Origin: a virus
Direction: 5' to 3' (one strand)
Length of the DNA: 34,124 nucleotides
IMG/VR virus record: IMGVR_UViG_3300013104_000734
Span: 1 to 34,124 of that record
Part shown: in pieces, positions 1-34,124 of the stretch
Position numbering within the stretch: position 1 is the stretch's first letter
Layout: every line of letters starts with the position of its first letter
Translations under genes and position numbers: made by a program
Notes under the pieces: model-generated
What the model saw: only the letters and a program-made list of their open reading frames with translations
What the model was told of the DNA's origin: nothing
Database searches by the model: none

Positions 1-1185
1 ATGCGCTATCTCGACGTCTGCGCCGGTATCTCCGCAAGCACCATCGCGTGGAAGCCGCTCGGTTGGGAGGCCGCAGCCTACAGCGAGATCGAGGCCGCGC
101 CGCGCGCGATCCTCGCCCACCACTATCCCGACACGCCGCTGCACGGCGATTTCACCACCATCCGAGGCGATGAATATGGACCAATTGACCTTCTTGTCGG
201 GGGAACCCCCTGCCAGGACTTCTCCGTCGCCGGCCTCCGAAAGGGCTTGGATGGAGACCGTGGCAACCTCAGCCTTGAGTTTCTCCGCCTTGCTGATCGC
301 ACACGGCCCCGCTGGATCGTATGGGAGAACGTCCCCGGCGTCCTGTCGATCGATGGCGGACGGGCGTTTGGCTCCATCCTCGGGGGGGTGGGCGAACTCG
401 GGTATGGGTTCGCCTACAGAGTTCTGGACGCTCAGCACTTTGGAGTTCCCCAGCGCCGCCGTCGCGTCTTCGTTGTCGGATGTCTTGGAGATTGGCGACG
501 TGCCGGAGCGGTACTTTTTGAGCGCCACAGCTTGTCGGGGCATCCTGCGCCGCGCAGAGAAAAGGGGGAAGGTGTTGCCGGATGCCTTAGCCCGGGCGCT
601 CACCCGGGCGGCTTCAACGGACAGGATGCCTACGACAACAAGCTGATCGCGTTCGGCGGCAACAATTGCTCGGGCCCGGTTGACGTGGCGACTGCGCTGC
701 AATCGCATGGCGGTCCGCATGGCAGACAGGACTTCGCAAGCGAAACCTTCGTCGCTCACGCAATTCAGGCAGGCGCCCTGCGCGAAAATCCTGATGCCGG
801 GCCAGACGGCATCGGTGTGCAGGAAGGCTGCGCCTATACCTTGGAGGCTCGCGCGGAGGTGCAGGCAATCTGCTTCTCCGCCAAGGATCACGGCGCCGAC
901 GCGATGGAGGATTGCTCGCCGACCCTGCGAGCGGGCGGCTTCACGAACAGCCACGCAAACGCGGGAGTGATGCCGGCGGTGGCCTTCACCAAAACAGCCG
1001 CAGCGAGGTTCGCCAGATCAGCGGTGATGGCGGCATTGTCGGCGCCCTGGCAGCAGAGCCGGGAGCTCAGCAGCAGAACTATGTCGCTGCGGCCTCCGCC
1101 GTCCGCCGCCTCACCCCTCGCGAGTGCGAGCGCCTCCAAGGCTTCCCCGACGATTACACATTGGTCCCGTACCGCAAGGGCATGA
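1..1185 (+). CDS. dcm: DNA (cytosine-5) methyltransferase, frameshifted; N-terminal and target-recognition part
   Basis: C5-cytosine DNA methyltransferase, which transfers a methyl group from SAM to cytosine in a short DNA site; in phages it usually protects DNA from host restriction. Visible motifs: SAM-binding motif I near residues 4-10 (DVCAGIS), catalytic motif IV with the Pro-Cys-Gln nucleophile near residue 70 (GTPCQDFS), motif VI ENVPGVL near residues 110-116, and motif VIII QRRRRVF near residues 151-157. The middle would be the target recognition domain. After about residue 328 this frame turns into low-quality Ala/Ser/Arg sequence, while the missing motifs IX-X continue in the -1 frame (next entry). 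A single lost base near 985-992 explains this. The first base of the window is the A of the ATG, so the upstream signals are unseen. Family assignment is secure; whether an active enzyme is made is not. Confidence 0.9.
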   Translation: MRYLDVCAGISASTIAWKPLGWEAAAYSEIEAAPRAILAHHYPDTPLHGDFTTIRGDEYGPIDLLVGGTPCQDFSVAGLRKGLDGDRGNLSLEFLRLADRTRPRWIVWENVPGVLSIDGGRAFGSILGGVGELGYGFAYRVLDAQHFGVPQRRRRVFVVGCLGDWRRAGAVLFERHSLSGHPAPRREKGEGVAGCLSPGAHPGGFNGQDAYDNKLIAFGGNNCSGPVDVATALQSHGGPHGRQDFASETFVAHAIQAGALRENPDAGPDGIGVQEGCAYTLEARAEVQAICFSAKDHGADAMEDCSPTLRAGGFTNSHANAGVMPAVAFTKTAAARFARSAVMAALSAPWQQSRELSSRTMSLRPPPSAASPLASASASKASPTITHWSRTARA

Positions 1186-4905: not shown

Positions 4906-6065
4906 GCGGCCAACATTTCCGGCACGATCGTATTGACCGCGACCTGTCCATATTCAGCGTGGTAGGAGATGGCCTTGACCTGGCGCTCGCTCACCCATCC
5001 GCCACGGGCGGCATAGGCGTCTCTGGCTGCCAAGGTGGCGTGCTGCGTAACAACCATGCCGCTATGCTCCTTCACCTCTTCATGATGGCGGTGTCCGGTG
5101 TGGCAATAGCGCTTCGTGGTAGCGCCCCAGATCGTAGGGAACTGCGCGGCGAACAGCATAGGTAGCTGGTCGTTCTTCATCTTGTGGCCATGGTGGAAGG
5201 CCAGCATAACCTTGCCGTGCTGGTAGACGTAGAACGGCAATTCGCTGTCGTTGACGCTCAGACGCGGCTCATTCTCATAGAGCGCTGCGAACATCTGCCG
5301 GAGCCACACGGACGAACTCTCGTCGTGGTTGCCCTCGCATATCAGCAAGTGGACCGTGGGATGGGCGGTAAGCGCCAGATCGACCACGCGGCGGATGATC
5401 CGGATCGCGACGGATACAACCTTGGAGAAGCGGCTATCCGCGTCAAGGACATGGCCGTGTTCAGGCGTGACGGGCTTCAGCCCATCGAAATGGAGAAAGT
5501 CGCCTTGGACGTTGACGATCCCGACGCCCGCTGACGGAGCGGAGGCCACCATAGCCGAGAAGCAGCCGAGCAAGGTTTGTTCGGCGATGTCCAGATCCCA
5601 ATCAGCCCCACCCTCCTTGCGCCACGCCAGCATACCGACATGGCTGTCGGTCAGGGTGTAGAGGTTCGCCAGATCGAGGCTGACGGACTTAGGCGCGTCA
5701 ATTGGTGCGACCCGTGGCAGATCGGCAGCCATGGCCGCGAACGCCTCGCGCATCGCCTCCGCGCGCTGTAGATCATCCAGCTTTGTCTTGACCCACTGCC
5801 CGCGCTGGTTGCCATCGGCATCGTAATAGGTCGAGACGCCCTTGATGACGTAGGGGTCGAAACCGTCACGGGCCGGGCCATAGCCCTCGCCGCCCGTCTC
5901 GAATGTGTTGGCCTCACCCCGGCTTTCCAGGTAGCGGATCAATCTCCGAAGGCGGGATCGGTGCCAGCCAAGCTCCTTTGCTGCGGCGGTCTTGTCGCCA
6001 TGACTACGGGCAAGCGCCTCTAGCGCCCGCCGACATTCGTCGGGGGTGTATGGTTCGGCTGGCAA
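4902..6065 (-). CDS. HTH-containing calcineurin-like metallophosphoesterase
   Basis: Two-part protein of about 387 residues. The N-terminus (residues about 23-46, DKTAAAKELGWHRSRLRRLI) is a helix-turn-helix-like segment. The rest is a calcineurin-like phosphoesterase with all metal-binding blocks in order: TDSHVG (about 139-144), GDFLHFDG (188-195), GNHDE (245-249), HHGHK (291-295) and HTGHRHH (322-328). It probably hydrolyses phosphodiesters with two metal ions; the substrate is unknown. I place the start at TTG 6065 because a perfect AGGAGG lies 6 nt before it; an upstream TTG at 6128 has no such site. Related proteins occur in phages. Here it sits late in the virion operon, just before lysis genes. 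Confidence 0.8.
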   Translation of the reverse strand: MPAEPYTPDECRRALEALARSHGDKTAAAKELGWHRSRLRRLIRYLESRGEANTFETGGEGYGPARDGFDPYVIKGVSTYYDADGNQRGQWVKTKLDDLQRAEAMREAFAAMAADLPRVAPIDAPKSVSLDLANLYTLTDSHVGMLAWRKEGGADWDLDIAEQTLLGCFSAMVASAPSAGVGIVNVQGDFLHFDGLKPVTPEHGHVLDADSRFSKVVSVAIRIIRRVVDLALTAHPTVHLLICEGNHDESSSVWLRQMFAALYENEPRLSVNDSELPFYVYQHGKVMLAFHHGHKMKNDQLPMLFAAQFPTIWGATTKRYCHTGHRHHEEVKEHSGMVVTQHATLAARDAYAARGGWVSERQVKAISYHAEYGQVAVNTIVPEMLAA

Positions 6066-21490: not shown

Positions 21491-21638
21491 GGTGTTCGTT
21501 CCACCATTGAACCGCCTGCGCCCAATGCTCGCGGAAATATTCACCCCATGTAAGCTGATGGTACCCGACAGACCCATCCTTGCGGAGCATTCTATAATCT
21601 AGGCCGAGCCGATTTATGATGATCCTGGGCTTACTCAT
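21483..21638 (-). CDS. small protein between portal and scaffold (51 aa)
   Basis: A 51-codon gene from ATG 21638, overlapping the portal stop (ATGA), to TGA 21483-21485, overlapping the 96-aa gene. It begins MSKPRIIINRLGLDYRMLRK, continues DGSVGYHQLTWGEYFREHWA and ends with a Trp/His-rich helix (QAVQWWNEHHG). The ATGA start and the protein-like sequence support it. I recognise no family. Confidence 0.6.
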   Translation of the reverse strand: MSKPRIIINRLGLDYRMLRKDGSVGYHQLTWGEYFREHWAQAVQWWNEHHG

Positions 21639-23737
21639 TGGTCGATCTTTCCGCCCGGGCGATCTGACTGAACAGGCTTGGCCGCAGCGATCTTGGCCTG
21701 ATACGCGAGATCAGCCTTCTTGTGCGCAAGCTCGGTTTCGGCCTCAAGCTGTTGCTGGCCCAGGTGGTAATCCATGGCCTGCTTCTGGACGGCAAGCGCG
21801 GTTTCGGTCTGCGCCTGCTGATTGGCCTGCATCGCCTGGGATTCGTTCTTGAACTGCTCGTTGGCGAGGCGCGATTGCGTGTCATGAGCCTTGATCGCGG
21901 TGGTTTGCTGGGCGCGATCCTGTTCGATCTGCGTTTTCTGCTGGTAGAACTCGATCTGCGCCTGAGCCTTGGCCATCTCGGGATTGTTCTGCCGCATCAT
22001 GGCGGCTTGTTGCGCAGCCTGTTGGCCCTCGGGGCTGTCGGGATCGATAATATAGTCGGTCGGCACGCCCAATTCCGCGTCGCGGATCATACGTTCAACA
22101 TTGTTGAAGATGCCCTTGGCGCTGCTCAGGCCGAGTTGGAGGCCGTCCTTCTGCATGTCCAGGAGCTGCATGCGATATTGAAGCCGCTGATCCTTGCGGC
22201 CAGAGCCCAAGCCCACCGTGACGTTCGCGGACAGGCCATCGGGCCACTTGCTCGGATCGACCATGACGCTTTGCCCGTCGATCTTGACCTGGAAGGGCTT
22301 GCCAGTTTGCTGCATGAGGCGCAGCTTTTTGGCGAACAGACGCCCTAAGCCTTCCGCGAAATTACGGGCGACGAACTCTTCCATCTGCTGGCCTTGGGCC
22401 TGCATGAGAGCCGTTCCCGTCGCGGTCTTGTTCAGCGCGTCAGCGTCAAGACCCTGATTGAGCCTGGTAATCCCGGTGCGCGATTCCCGCTCGCCCGTGA
22501 TGTACTCCAGCATCGTCATGCCTTTCGACATGTCGAATGCTTCATAGAGCGGCTTGGGCTGATTGGGGCCTTTGCCTCTGACTAGGCCGCCGGGGCGCAC
22601 CGTCAGAAGGTCATCGATCGTATCTTCCGTCATGCAGTCCTGCGGGACGTACATGCGGGGATTGTTTGTCAGGTAGAGCCCGTTCAATTGCTGGCGCAGC
22701 ACCACGCTCTTGATGCGCTGAAGGTCCATGACCTTATCGGCCAGCGAATTGCCGACCAGCCTATGGGCACGCGGGAATGGGCACCATACGACGAACGGCG
22801 CTTCGTCCACCTCCTCAACGCTGAGGATGATATTCTCGACGCGAAACACCTTGATCAGCTCGGCAATGCCGTCACCGTCAAGATCAACGCGCTTATATTC
22901 TTCCCGAAGCCATACCTTGCGCACACCGGGTGTTTCGGTCTGCGTCTCATCCAGCCAGCGCGCGGTCTGGCGCTGATCCCATTGCTCCGTTCCGGGATCG
23001 GACGGCAGGCTATCGACTAGTTCCCTGTCAAAGCCCATCTCGATCAGGTCGGACGTGGTTTTGGCCGAGCGATGGCAGAGGTAGTTCGCGTCATCCTCAT
23101 GCCGAGTGCGTGAGGCGAACAGAAACTCCTCGCTCGGGATGGGATAATCGCAGAAGCGCGTTTCCTGCGTATGTTCGTGAATCTCGATCTGCCACGTACC
23201 GTCGCCATTGTCGGTCGCAGCGGCGATGTTGGCGCCTTGATGATGCAGCATGGCGAGCTGCATCTCGTCAACGACACCACGGGTCTTTTTGACCTTCTCG
23301 TAGGTCTCGGCACAGGTTTTCGCGATGCCGATCTTTTCGATTAGGCCCGACTGGATCCAGTCGTGGATGATGCGATAACCATCCTGTTGCTTCATGAACG
23401 AGTAGGTAACGGCGGCAGTGGCCTGTTCAGCCGCTTCCTCGTTATCCTGCTCGGCGCTTTCGAACTCGACAACGCGGTCGCCCGAAACCATGGTGCGCGC
23501 AACCGAGATGGTCATATAATCGACCACTTCGGCGACTTCCGGGGTCACGACCTGGGAAAGGCCGTCTTCCTCATCGCCAAACGGGCGCGCTTCGTAATAG
23601 TCGATTGCGACCGATTGCTCATCGGCCAGCGTGGTATCGCGGAAGGAAATGGCTAGGCGCTCATCTTCCGCCAGAAGCGCGGCCAATTCCTCATGGCTCA
23701 ACGGCTCATTGTCGGGGATGATCGGCGCTGATGCCAC
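21635..23737 (-). CDS. portal protein, P22/SU10-type (700 aa)
   Basis: Dodecameric portal through which DNA is packaged and ejected. The N-terminal wing and stem show the features of P22-like portals: SHEELAALLAEDERLAISFR, then YYEARPFGDEEDGLSQVVTP with EVAEVVDYMTISVARTM, a central RRE/acidic DLDGDGIAELIKVFRVE segment, and VWCPFPRAHRLVGNSLADKV. The C-terminal about 130 residues are almost pure Gln/Ala/Lys/Glu helix, the barrel typical of P22. Length fits the family. Downstream of terL (1-bp overlap) and upstream of head-assembly genes. Confidence 0.85.
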   Translation of the reverse strand: MASAPIIPDNEPLSHEELAALLAEDERLAISFRDTTLADEQSVAIDYYEARPFGDEEDGLSQVVTPEVAEVVDYMTISVARTMVSGDRVVEFESAEQDNEEAAEQATAAVTYSFMKQQDGYRIIHDWIQSGLIEKIGIAKTCAETYEKVKKTRGVVDEMQLAMLHHQGANIAAATDNGDGTWQIEIHEHTQETRFCDYPIPSEEFLFASRTRHEDDANYLCHRSAKTTSDLIEMGFDRELVDSLPSDPGTEQWDQRQTARWLDETQTETPGVRKVWLREEYKRVDLDGDGIAELIKVFRVENIILSVEEVDEAPFVVWCPFPRAHRLVGNSLADKVMDLQRIKSVVLRQQLNGLYLTNNPRMYVPQDCMTEDTIDDLLTVRPGGLVRGKGPNQPKPLYEAFDMSKGMTMLEYITGERESRTGITRLNQGLDADALNKTATGTALMQAQGQQMEEFVARNFAEGLGRLFAKKLRLMQQTGKPFQVKIDGQSVMVDPSKWPDGLSANVTVGLGSGRKDQRLQYRMQLLDMQKDGLQLGLSSAKGIFNNVERMIRDAELGVPTDYIIDPDSPEGQQAAQQAAMMRQNNPEMAKAQAQIEFYQQKTQIEQDRAQQTTAIKAHDTQSRLANEQFKNESQAMQANQQAQTETALAVQKQAMDYHLGQQQLEAETELAHKKADLAYQAKIAAAKPVQSDRPGGKIDQ

Positions 23738-31734: not shown

Positions 31735-31820
31735 TAGGCATTATGTAGGCATTCATGCTTAGATGCAAGTGCAGAGTTGCCTACCCCGCCGCATAGGCAT
31801 GTTTGCTATGTCCGTGCCTA
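31735..31820. promoter_or_regulatory. cro/cI operator region with the cro promoter
   Basis: Leftward cro promoter (minus): -35 TTGCAT at 31763-31768, 17-bp spacer, -10 CATAAT at 31740-31745 (5 of 6); the transcript start falls at 31732-31731, the cro ATG. The operator TAGGCATTCATGCTTA (31746-31761) fills the spacer exactly. A second operator-like site TAGGCATGTTTGCTAT lies at 31794-31809 and half-sites TAGGCA (31735), TGCCTA (31778) and TGCCTA (31815) lie around it. I see no convincing promoter or ribosome site for cI on the plus strand. Consensus TAGGCA-N4-TGCYTA. Confidence 0.75.
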
Positions 31821-32470
31821 TGCCGGGGATAGATAACGACATTCAGCTTGTCCGCGATTTGATCGCGTGGACGGATAGCAACGCAAACCAGATCGCCAAA
31901 AAGATCGGGGTGGCAAACACCACACTCAACCGGTTTGCCAATGGAACCTCTCAAACGCGGCTCGGCAGGGGCACGCTCATTAAGCTGCGCGAGGCCTATC
32001 CACGATTTCCAGGGTTCGCGCTCGACTCCGATTTGCCGCCTGATGAAGGCGAAGTTGACCGGGACTATGTGCCGATCGCGGTTCTACCCTCCTACGGGGG
32101 TATGGGCGGTGGCGGAACCGGCGAGGGTGATCGGGTCATGGCGAAGTTGCCTCGCCGGCTGATCGAGGAAGAGTTGCGCGGGCAGCCCGGGGACTTCGAA
32201 CTTATCGACGTGAGGGGGGATAGCAACTTCCCGGAGTTTCACCACGGCGACCAGATATTGATCGATAAACGCGACCGCAATCCCGTGCAGCCTGGCTATT
32301 TCGCGCTTTGGGATGGCGACGGGTATGTCGTAAAAAAGGTTGAGCGCGTTCCTCAGCGGCGCGGGTGGTACCGCGTGTTTTCGGCTAACCTTCAATATCG
32401 CGAATACGAAGTGGAAGAGACCGATACCACTATCATGGGGAGGCCGGTATGGTTCGCGCGGCGACTTTAG
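31808..32470 (+). CDS. cI: CI-like repressor with S24 domain (220 aa)
   Basis: N-terminal HTH (SNANQIAKKIGVANTTLNRF, about 24-43) and C-terminal S24/LexA-type domain: Ser139 in RGDSNFPEFHHGDQILID and Lys176 or 177 in DGYVVKKVER form the usual Ser-Lys pair; the end TIMGRPVWFARRL is typical. The linker has a glycine run (SYGGMGGGGTGEG) instead of a plain Ala-Gly cleavage site, so RecA-triggered autocleavage is not evident. Start uncertain: ATG 31808 is my choice; 31763, 31799 and 31820 are in frame and none has a ribosome site. Its operators flank the immunity region. Maintains lysogeny. Confidence 0.8.
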   Translation: MSVPMPGIDNDIQLVRDLIAWTDSNANQIAKKIGVANTTLNRFANGTSQTRLGRGTLIKLREAYPRFPGFALDSDLPPDEGEVDRDYVPIAVLPSYGGMGGGGTGEGDRVMAKLPRRLIEEELRGQPGDFELIDVRGDSNFPEFHHGDQILIDKRDRNPVQPGYFALWDGDGYVVKKVERVPQRRGWYRVFSANLQYREYEVEETDTTIMGRPVWFARRL

Positions 32471-32877: not shown

Positions 32878-33117
32878 ATGGCGAACGTCGCCGACTTGCT
32901 CACAGAACTCGATAGCGCAGCGGTTGCGCTGGAAGAGGCGTCCAAGCTCTTGTTCGCCAAGGGCCTGCAAGGCTCGGCGAGCATCATCATGGGTCACGCT
33001 GACCGTGCCCGCGCCGCCATCGCTAAGGCTGAGGCTGAGGCTGAGGCTGAAGCTCAAGCCGCCCTCAACTCAGAAAACAGCGAGATGATCGCCCTGTCTA
33101 ATGGGCGGTTGGCGTGA
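32878..33117 (+). CDS. hypothetical protein with Ala-Glu tail (79 aa)
   Basis: First gene of the rightward operon; ATG 32878 with GGGAG about 7 nt upstream. Helical: MANVADLLTELDSAAVALEE, then KGLQGSASIIMGHADRARAA and a short run of AE repeats encoded by GCTGAG units, which makes the C-terminal helix. Function unknown. Confidence 0.6.
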   Translation: MANVADLLTELDSAAVALEEASKLLFAKGLQGSASIIMGHADRARAAIAKAEAEAEAEAQAALNSENSEMIALSNGRLA

Positions 33118-33299
33118 TGGTCTGGTTGGCAAATCAGGCGATGGATGCGGCTCGGTTCATCATATCGGCGGCAGGCGGCCTCGTGATCGGCGCCGCGTGC
33201 GCAATGGGCCTCGAAAAGCTCGGGATCGATGAGGGTGTAGCATGGAAGTGCTGCATATCGATCTTCTTCATCCTCATGGTTTGGGTGGTTAAGGCATGA
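33117..33299 (+). CDS. small two-helix membrane protein (60 aa)
   Basis: Starts at ATG 33117, sharing TGATG with the previous stop (GTG 33114 is an alternative). Two hydrophobic stretches (FIISAAGGLVIGAACAMGL, CISIFFILMVWVVKA). Overlaps the next gene's ATG by 4 bp. Unknown role. Confidence 0.55.
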   Translation: MVWLANQAMDAARFIISAAGGLVIGAACAMGLEKLGIDEGVAWKCCISIFFILMVWVVKA

Positions 33300-33565
33300 G
33301 CGCTCTTCTGCTCTGCTGCGGCTGCGACGCCATCCGCGATGTCGAGCGCGCCTTCTGTGCGTCATGTGGCGAGGCAACGGATAGCTACGCCTACGAACCT
33401 ACAGAGCGCGAAACCTTCGTCATGAAGCAGCGCCAGTGCACACCCGTCGCTTTCGAGCGCTCCGCCACATTCGACGGTGATCCCATCTCTCCTGCCACCG
33501 CTGACGAAATACGCCAGCTTGGTCGGCCAACCCTTCATATCAATTATAATCGGAAGGCAGCGTAA
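33296..33565 (+). CDS. small Cys-rich protein (89 aa)
   Basis: Starts with ATGA overlap at 33296. MSALLLCCGCDAIRDVERAF then CASCGE: Cys pairs at residues 7-10 and 21-24 form a zinc-ribbon-like knuckle. The rest is a short acidic/polar part with no motif. Stop overlaps the next ATG (TAATG). Confidence 0.55.
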   Translation: MSALLLCCGCDAIRDVERAFCASCGEATDSYAYEPTERETFVMKQRQCTPVAFERSATFDGDPISPATADEIRQLGRPTLHINYNRKAA

Positions 33566-34124
33566 TGGCGGCGAAGAAACTATACAGCTTCAACGATCAT
33601 CCCGAGCATAAGGCTCGGCTTGGTGATTGGGCCAATAAGTGGATCGCGAATGCGATGTCCACTTCCGCCATGACCGAGGACGAGCGCGAGCTTTGCCGTA
33701 AAGCCGCGAAGGGGCTCTATGAAGCGGCAGGTTTGCCAGCGCCAAAGCATATTGTTTTCGTGCCGTCACCATTCGTCTTGCGGTTTGCAGGAGGTTTCGC
33801 TGCAGCGCGCTGGTATCTCCATCATCAGCAAAAAACGCTTGCGGAAGCAAGCGCCACGCGCAGCGCCACGGACAGCGCCACGGACAGCGCCACGCGCAGC
33901 GCCACGCGCAGCGCCACGCGCAGCGCCACGTACAGCGCCACGTACAGCGCCACGGACAGCGCCACGCGCAGCGCCACGTACAGCGCCACGTACAGCGCCA
34001 CGGACAGCGCCACGCGCAGCGCCACGGACAGCGCCACGGCCAGCGCCACGGACAGCGCCACGTACAGCGCCACGTACAGCGCCACGGACAGCGCCACGGA
34101 CAGCGCCACGGACAGCGCCACGTA
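33565..34124 (+). CDS. phage protein with Ser-Ala-Thr-X tetrapeptide repeats, incomplete
   Basis: Starts at ATG 33565 (TAATG overlap) and stays open to the window edge. The N-terminal 95 residues are a charged helical part (MAAKKLYSFNDHPEHKARLG..., TEDERELCRKAAKGLYEAAG) and a hydrophobic VPSPFVLRFAGGFAAARWYL segment. From residue 96 the protein is 22 tetrapeptides Ser-Ala-Thr-X, with X being Asp, Arg, Tyr or once Ala. The array continues out of the window, so the C-terminus is unknown. The N-terminus recalls phage proteins with the same repeats (memory only). Likely structural role for the array; function not known. Confidence 0.75.
   Translation, partial: MAAKKLYSFNDHPEHKARLGDWANKWIANAMSTSAMTEDERELCRKAAKGLYEAAGLPAPKHIVFVPSPFVLRFAGGFAAARWYLHHQQKTLAEASATRSATDSATDSATRSATRSATRSATYSATYSATDSATRSATYSATYSATDSATRSATDSATASATDSATYSATYSATDSATDSATDSAT
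33850..34124 (+). repeat. 12-bp coding minisatellite (AGC GCC ACG NNC)
   Basis: At least 22 complete copies of a 12-bp unit plus part of a 23rd, cut by the window end. Only the fourth codon changes (CGC, GAC, TAC, once GCC); the other nine bases are invariant in all copies. A longer unit R-Y-Y-D recurs, which suggests copying of four-unit blocks by unequal exchange. No stop codons occur in any frame, which explains the long opposite-strand ORF. Confidence 0.95.

Follow-up and report, generated by a model that had tools for sequence, protein, structure and literature searches.

The window analysed here, that is, the whole stretch of 34,124 bp making up a linear virus contig, ends inside an open reading frame that runs into a perfect 12-bp tandem repeat in which a single codon varies. 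This raises the question of what the complete gene encodes, how such a repeat changes, and what use a phage might have for it.

The array at the contig end

The units read AGC GCC ACG NNC and encode Ser-Ala-Thr-X (Table 1); Tandem Repeats Finder places the repeat at 33850-34122 with a period of 12, 22.8 copies and a score of 413. An initial annotation of this DNA had counted 22 copies that are constant save for two or three bases. The count stands, and the variation narrows to exactly two bases, the first two of the X codon; its third base and all nine framework bases are invariant across the 22 units. X had been described as almost only Arg, Asp or Tyr, as is the case in 21 of the 22 units, the codons being GAC (9), CGC (6), TAC (6) and GCC (1), or 9 Asp, 6 Arg, 6 Tyr and 1 Ala. 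The Arg-Tyr-Tyr-Asp blocks that were said to recur are present twice, but X does not depart significantly from a random order (lag-4 identity p = 0.08).

The suspicion that the window stops at an assembly limit appears well founded. The record end lies in the array, and about 22 of the about 51 IMG/VR contigs with such a tetrapeptide array (counted from contig ranges) likewise terminate within it, which makes an assembly break the likely cause. On our reading, an accessory gene of the phage is present in the window for its first two-thirds, counted from the 5′ end.

Table 1. Positions of the array gene and of the genes preceding it in the window.
Feature	Position	Strand	Remarks
CI/LexA-like repressor	31763..32470	+	HTH + Peptidase_S24; array gene downstream on the same strand
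Small ORF	32878..33117	+	presumed operon of the array gene
Small predicted membrane ORF	33114..33299	+	4-base overlaps with its neighbours; presumed operon of the array gene
Upstream ORF, 89 aa	33296..33565	+	zinc-ribbon-like start CxxC...CxxC; weak Zn_ribbon_NOB1 match, E=0.013, below cut-off
Array gene (ORF)	33565..34122	+	start ATG at 33565; frame still open at the record end
N-terminal head, 95 aa	33565..33849	+	MAAKKLYSF...HIVFVPSPFVLRFAGGFAAARWYLHHQQKTLAEA; 13 IMG/VR relatives, 51-74% identity, all followed by an array
Array	33850..34113	+	22 complete, perfect 12-bp units, Ser-Ala-Thr-X; X = RDDRRRYYDRYYDRDADYYDDD
23rd unit	34114..34124	+	11 bases, then contig end

The array joins a conserved head to DUF6745

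Searches of Pfam and PHROGs with the window protein gave only weak low-complexity or chance matches, and the family emerged from the head. Homologues of this 95-aa part, which the initial annotation had proposed to look for, were found in IMG/VR with 74% identity in L002 and 51-68% in most others, over 69-97 aa. Each of the 13 continues into a tetrapeptide array, SAT-X in the closest, L002, and mostly X-[A/D]-A-T in the others, so that relatives keeping the head and lacking the repeats number 0 of 13. In the complete relatives (L002, L006-L008, L010, L011, L013 and L014) the array is followed by a conserved region of ~200 aa that corresponds to DUF6745 (PF20530); all four complete relatives scanned passed the PF20530 gathering score (E 7e-8 to 5e-53). 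Five others (L003, L004, L005, L009 and L012) stop within the array, like the window. L012 and L059 are the two contig ends of one IMG/VR record and both fall within a single array, which is what assembly would leave of a circular genome opened at that point. We infer that the missing C-terminus of the window protein is DUF6745, with the stop codon beyond the record.

A scan with the DUF6745 part added 50 loci, in which the middle segment is a tetrapeptide array with a phage-specific unit. The description as a Ser-Ala-Thr-X protein therefore fits the window but names only one version of a family whose unit types include SAT, AAT, NAT, QV, SV, SSL, QL, NL and AV (patterns including xSAT, xAAT, DQVx, DSVx, SSLx and DNLx). 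In the mycobacterial prophage prophiGD102-1, gp38 has DUF6745 in the same head-array-DUF6745 order and differs in its units, [GRW][DG]QL. Nine of the listed DUF6745 loci are array-less, as is gp174 of Microcystis phage LMM01, in which DUF6745 follows an N-terminal part; such homologues are found only further away than the head relatives, and since they exist, the core function can do without the array. The full protein would thus consist of an N-terminal domain, a tetrapeptide array of 0 to ~95 units and a C-terminal DUF6745. Members also occur in bacterial genomes (Sphingobium, Novosphingobium, another Sphingomonadales bacterium and Pseudothauera), and in a phylum sample DUF6745 is rare, with 3 of 398 genomes carrying it, the starting genome included. 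Our literature search found no paper naming DUF6745.

Two chromosomal loci depart from this plan. In the Bdellovibrio bacteriovorus strain kdesi chromosome (L034, ~4986-5804), the head continues in frame with permease-like sequence after one or two remnant units, without DUF6745; it is a decayed or recombined copy. The chromosomal DUF6745 protein of L090 (ORF from 358) has leucine-rich-like repeats in its N-terminal half instead of tetrapeptides, so the domain apparently combines with repeats of more than one type.

A small partner gene accompanies DUF6745

An all-against-all comparison of neighbouring ORFs returned one recurrent neighbour, a protein of ~115 aa with the motif QGD...HSETGHHH...H...LP.G.YEVRRQREY.PE..RRVAD. 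Its gene adjoins nearly every DUF6745 gene, and wherever both were seen they are adjacent, with the partner upstream in some loci and downstream in others; this placement on either side speaks for a pairing by function and against a gene order that was simply inherited. The partner profile, A2, matches 69 fetched loci against 74 with DUF6745, counts that include duplicate loci and partner-only contigs, and it is too diverse for a scan of the collection. DUF6745 loci lacking the partner are mostly contigs cut near the array, and the partner is present also at array-less LMM01 and at the M. abscessus prophage prophiGD102-1. Profile A2 has no match in the window, including the 89-aa ORF upstream of the array gene, which is not the conserved partner. 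In the closest relatives the partner lies downstream, a position that falls past the contig end here, and the window protein presumably has a partner gene as well.

The partner had no match in Pfam. Its structure model is all-beta (mean pLDDT 82), and the best PDB fold within the Foldseek shortlist scored an uninformative Z of 3.8. A His-rich motif, GHxH ... H, is conserved in this small all-beta partner (e.g., L010 7477-7836 and L007 5111-5452) and could be a site for binding metal.

Concerted evolution with retained diversity at X

The statistics below come from 44 arrays of at least 10 units (1441 units). The minor-base frequency is 0.52 at the first base of X, 0.31 at its second base and 0.25 at the second base of the first codon, where Ala and Asp alternate. 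At framework third positions it does not exceed 0.024, and at bases 1 and 2 of the anchor codon it does not exceed 0.001. The first two X bases vary more than third positions in all 44 arrays, 28 of which have no framework third-position variation at all. Among the 30 arrays of the Ala-Thr type, within-array diversity reaches 0.65 at X base 1 and 0.47 at X base 2 against 0.002-0.013 at silent framework sites, in line with the selection on X that had been proposed from the window alone, while the between-array diversity of the same silent sites is 0.57-0.59. The Thr codon, for example, is ACG in 22 of 22 window units and ACC in 21 of 21 units of L002. Judging from these comparisons, the arrays undergo concerted evolution through exchange or copying among units, with the diversity of X kept up, and the contrast of within- and between-array statistics offers a clean test case for this combination.

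The fast change in copy number that the initial annotation expected is seen between close relatives. Between L068 and L069, with 99.96% identity over 4.8 kb, exactly 14 units flanked by identical repeats have been lost cleanly and in frame; L002 and L021, with flanks 99.9% identical, have 21 and at least 28 units, the last ten X letters being common and the remainder divergent, with the proviso that, for metagenome contigs, some of the difference in unit number could stem from collapsed arrays or other artefacts of assembly. The arrays of L040 and L041, tetrapeptide for the rest, contain several occurrences of a longer, higher-order repeat (…TYHETVDAI…), which suggests block duplication of several units. 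We also considered a target of a diversity-generating retroelement. A search for reverse transcriptase (RVT_1) gave no match in 15 records including the window, some of which may be fragments, and this origin of the variation is not supported.

Different codons reach a common set of letters

A basic, an acidic and an aromatic residue are all present in 40 of the 44 arrays (0.29, 0.47 and 0.26 per unit, respectively), and arginine makes up at least 5% in 43. The letters are Asp, Arg and Tyr where the X codon ends in C or T, and Arg, Trp, Gly and Glu where it ends in G, with Asp moved to unit position 1 (0.44 vs. 0.11 per unit). Codons ending in G cannot encode Asp or Tyr, which would explain both the Asp at position 1 and the Trp. 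Since different codon routes reach the same balance of arginine, acid and aromatic residues, selection on composition at the protein level can be argued. Arginine, aromatic and acidic letters set among small spacer residues would resemble sticker-and-spacer disordered chains.

These patterns bear on whether the array means anything at all. A passive, neutral linker whose repeats expand by slippage would account for the range from 0 to ~95 units, for an X order without preference and for the low model confidence over the array (see below). However, silent sites should then vary no less than X, the reverse of what is observed within arrays, and the arginine, acid and aromatic content converges across unrelated unit types and codon classes. 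We regard a neutral linker as very unlikely.

Predicted structure

In an AlphaFold2 model of the complete relative L002, head and tail are predicted to be well ordered (block means mostly ~75-93), the head as helix-helix-strand-long helix, and the array has pLDDT ~29-43 with only weak helix over parts. The only strong viral fold match of the model is the LMM01 DUF6745 protein. Its best PDB fold (Z 3.7, Foldseek shortlist) is a helical antifreeze protein aligned mostly over the array, which we read as a trivial long-helix match, and a PDB sequence search returned only low-complexity and weak chance matches.

The initial annotation had allowed for some kind of solenoid. An array folded as a regular solenoid or as long helices, whose exposed ladder of X residues would make it a ruler or a surface for binding, would suit the strict period of four, the invariant Thr, Val or Leu anchor of every array and the helix that AlphaFold draws over parts of it. 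Against this stand the low pLDDT and the order of X, which in 38 arrays has no common structural period or turn length. Moreover, Gly-rich and Thr-rich units are poor helix formers. A solenoid is not indicated by these results, and we think a regular fold of either kind quite unlikely; rather, we infer that the array is disordered or multivalent.

Gene surroundings and the alternatives they bear on

The array gene is the fifth same-strand ORF after the S24/CI-like repressor and overlaps the 89-aa ORF by one base, the A of TAATG. Repressors precede the gene in the same orientation in L002 and in L031, the Novosphingobium mangrovi HK4-1 prophage; RecT is encoded near some relatives, and DNA polymerase genes lie near LMM01 gp174. 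This setting is the accessory or early region of temperate phages, not the structural region. Scans upstream of the array gene found no promoter above chance, and terminator-like sites are at the level of shuffled sequences. A run of 5.5 copies of the hexamer GCTGAG (33022-33054) encodes an Ala-Glu stretch in the ORF at 32878-33117, three genes upstream of the array.

With its S24 repressor and its portal, the window phage is a temperate podovirus-like phage, distant from the collection. The portal gene (21635-23737, minus strand) is of the SU10 type (E 5e-173), with ~30% identity to LUZ24-like podophages. At the other end of the contig, a cytosine-methyltransferase-like ORF (1-1185, plus strand) has as its ATG the very first bases, without upstream sequence.

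The gene order raises the idea of a prophage-expressed defence or superinfection exclusion system, in which an array gene on the repressor side is expressed in the lysogen and its variation retunes recognition of incoming phages. The position downstream of the repressor in the window, L002 and L031 agrees with this, as does a two-gene pairing conserved in either order; yet the large Microcystis phage LMM01 has the module too, with replication genes on both sides, and a PADLOC search matched known defence families only weakly, through low complexity inside the array (E=0.0005), with no match to the folded domains or the partner. We hold this role to be unlikely. Far less probable still is a role in the virion or in receptor binding, with the array varying to suit the host range. 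Phage fibres do have variable-copy repeat arrays, and there are weak low-complexity matches to tail proteins, but the gene sits in the immunity or early region with RecT and replication genes near it in relatives, and in Bordetella phage BMP-1 the repeat variation of bbp36 does not appear to reflect host tropism, at least in the account cited in PMC2884959.

Comparison with known repeat proteins and proposed function

The closest parallel is gp54 of mycobacteriophage Tweety. This protein is non-essential, and its array of 12-bp/tetrapeptide units has fixed third positions (PMC2884959). Mutants that escape the defence of Phrann or MichelleMyBell prophages have gained or lost repeats in it, and their activity against these defences switches accordingly (PMC9262239, PMC8549241). 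As in the present family, a folded N-terminal part, the array and a C-terminal part follow one another; framework codons and third positions are fixed and bases 1-2 of the other codons vary; closely related phages have unequal numbers of units, and the gene lies in the early region. On the other hand, gp54 (PHROG 3416, with ~148 mycobacteriophage relatives) has the unit Ala-Ala-[Gly/Trp/Gln]-[Ser/Tyr], unlike the arrays here. It has no Pfam match, no DUF6745 and no partner gene beside it. An hhalign comparison of gp54 with the folded parts of our family aligned only 23 columns at probability 65, that is, no detectable homology, and the window protein hits PHROG 3416 at E=9.9 via its repeats only (Tweety gp54, E=1e-142). 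We therefore do not assign the window protein to the gp54 family, with which no homology of N- and C-terminal parts was detected. What the window protein and its relatives share with gp54 is the 12-bp tandem unit, the fixed third codon positions and the copy-number variation between relatives, and our best reading is that the family would work like gp54, a resemblance by design and not by descent.

By this analogy, the array protein would act with the adjacent small all-beta partner against a fast-evolving bacterial or prophage factor. Recombination between identical copies would gain, lose and homogenise units, while selection would maintain, at the positions that vary, a mixture of arginine, acids and aromatics. 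Array length and letters would then set the spacing of the two folded domains, the strength of multivalent binding to the bacterial or prophage target, or both, and a change in copy number would let the phage retune a counter-defence (or inter-phage exclusion) protein, as shown genetically for Tweety gp54. We tentatively favour such a counter-defence or inter-phage role, with array-tuned specificity in an accessory module of temperate phages, and judge its chances to be close to even. Counting against it are the lack of detectable homology with gp54, the PADLOC outcome, the array-less homologues and the chance that some copy-number differences are assembly artefacts. That the two-gene modules of DUF6745 repeat protein and all-beta partner, with their convergent arginine, acid and aromatic letters, use length and letters as a fast-changing code for multivalent recognition or condensates in phage-bacterium or phage-phage conflict is a more speculative idea, which we consider somewhat unlikely.

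DUF6745, phage tetrapeptide arrays and the tuning of repeat number were each known already. Their combination in a widespread module with a partner, phage-specific units, convergent letters and strong concerted evolution is undescribed in the literature searched. Tweety gp54 had been presented as an isolated oddity of obscure mechanism, and the same design is now seen in a widespread phage family unrelated to it, whose members often lie on contigs from isolates or prophages (Novosphingobium, Sphingobium, Pseudothauera and M. abscessus). If the analogy holds, tuning by repeat number would be a general phage strategy, one that goes unseen in short-read assemblies, whose contigs end at the repeats.

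Two further systems are similar in part. The variable region 2 of BMP-1 bbp36 is, as cited in PMC2884959, an in-frame array in a non-essential gene with copy number varying between isolates; compared from the literature only, it differs in its 24-bp unit and has no known link to DUF6745. Pentapeptide-repeat proteins likewise combine a short period with one variable residue. The window protein is not one of them: there is no Pfam pentapeptide match, and, as the initial annotation had already objected, 12 bp give a period of four residues, not five.
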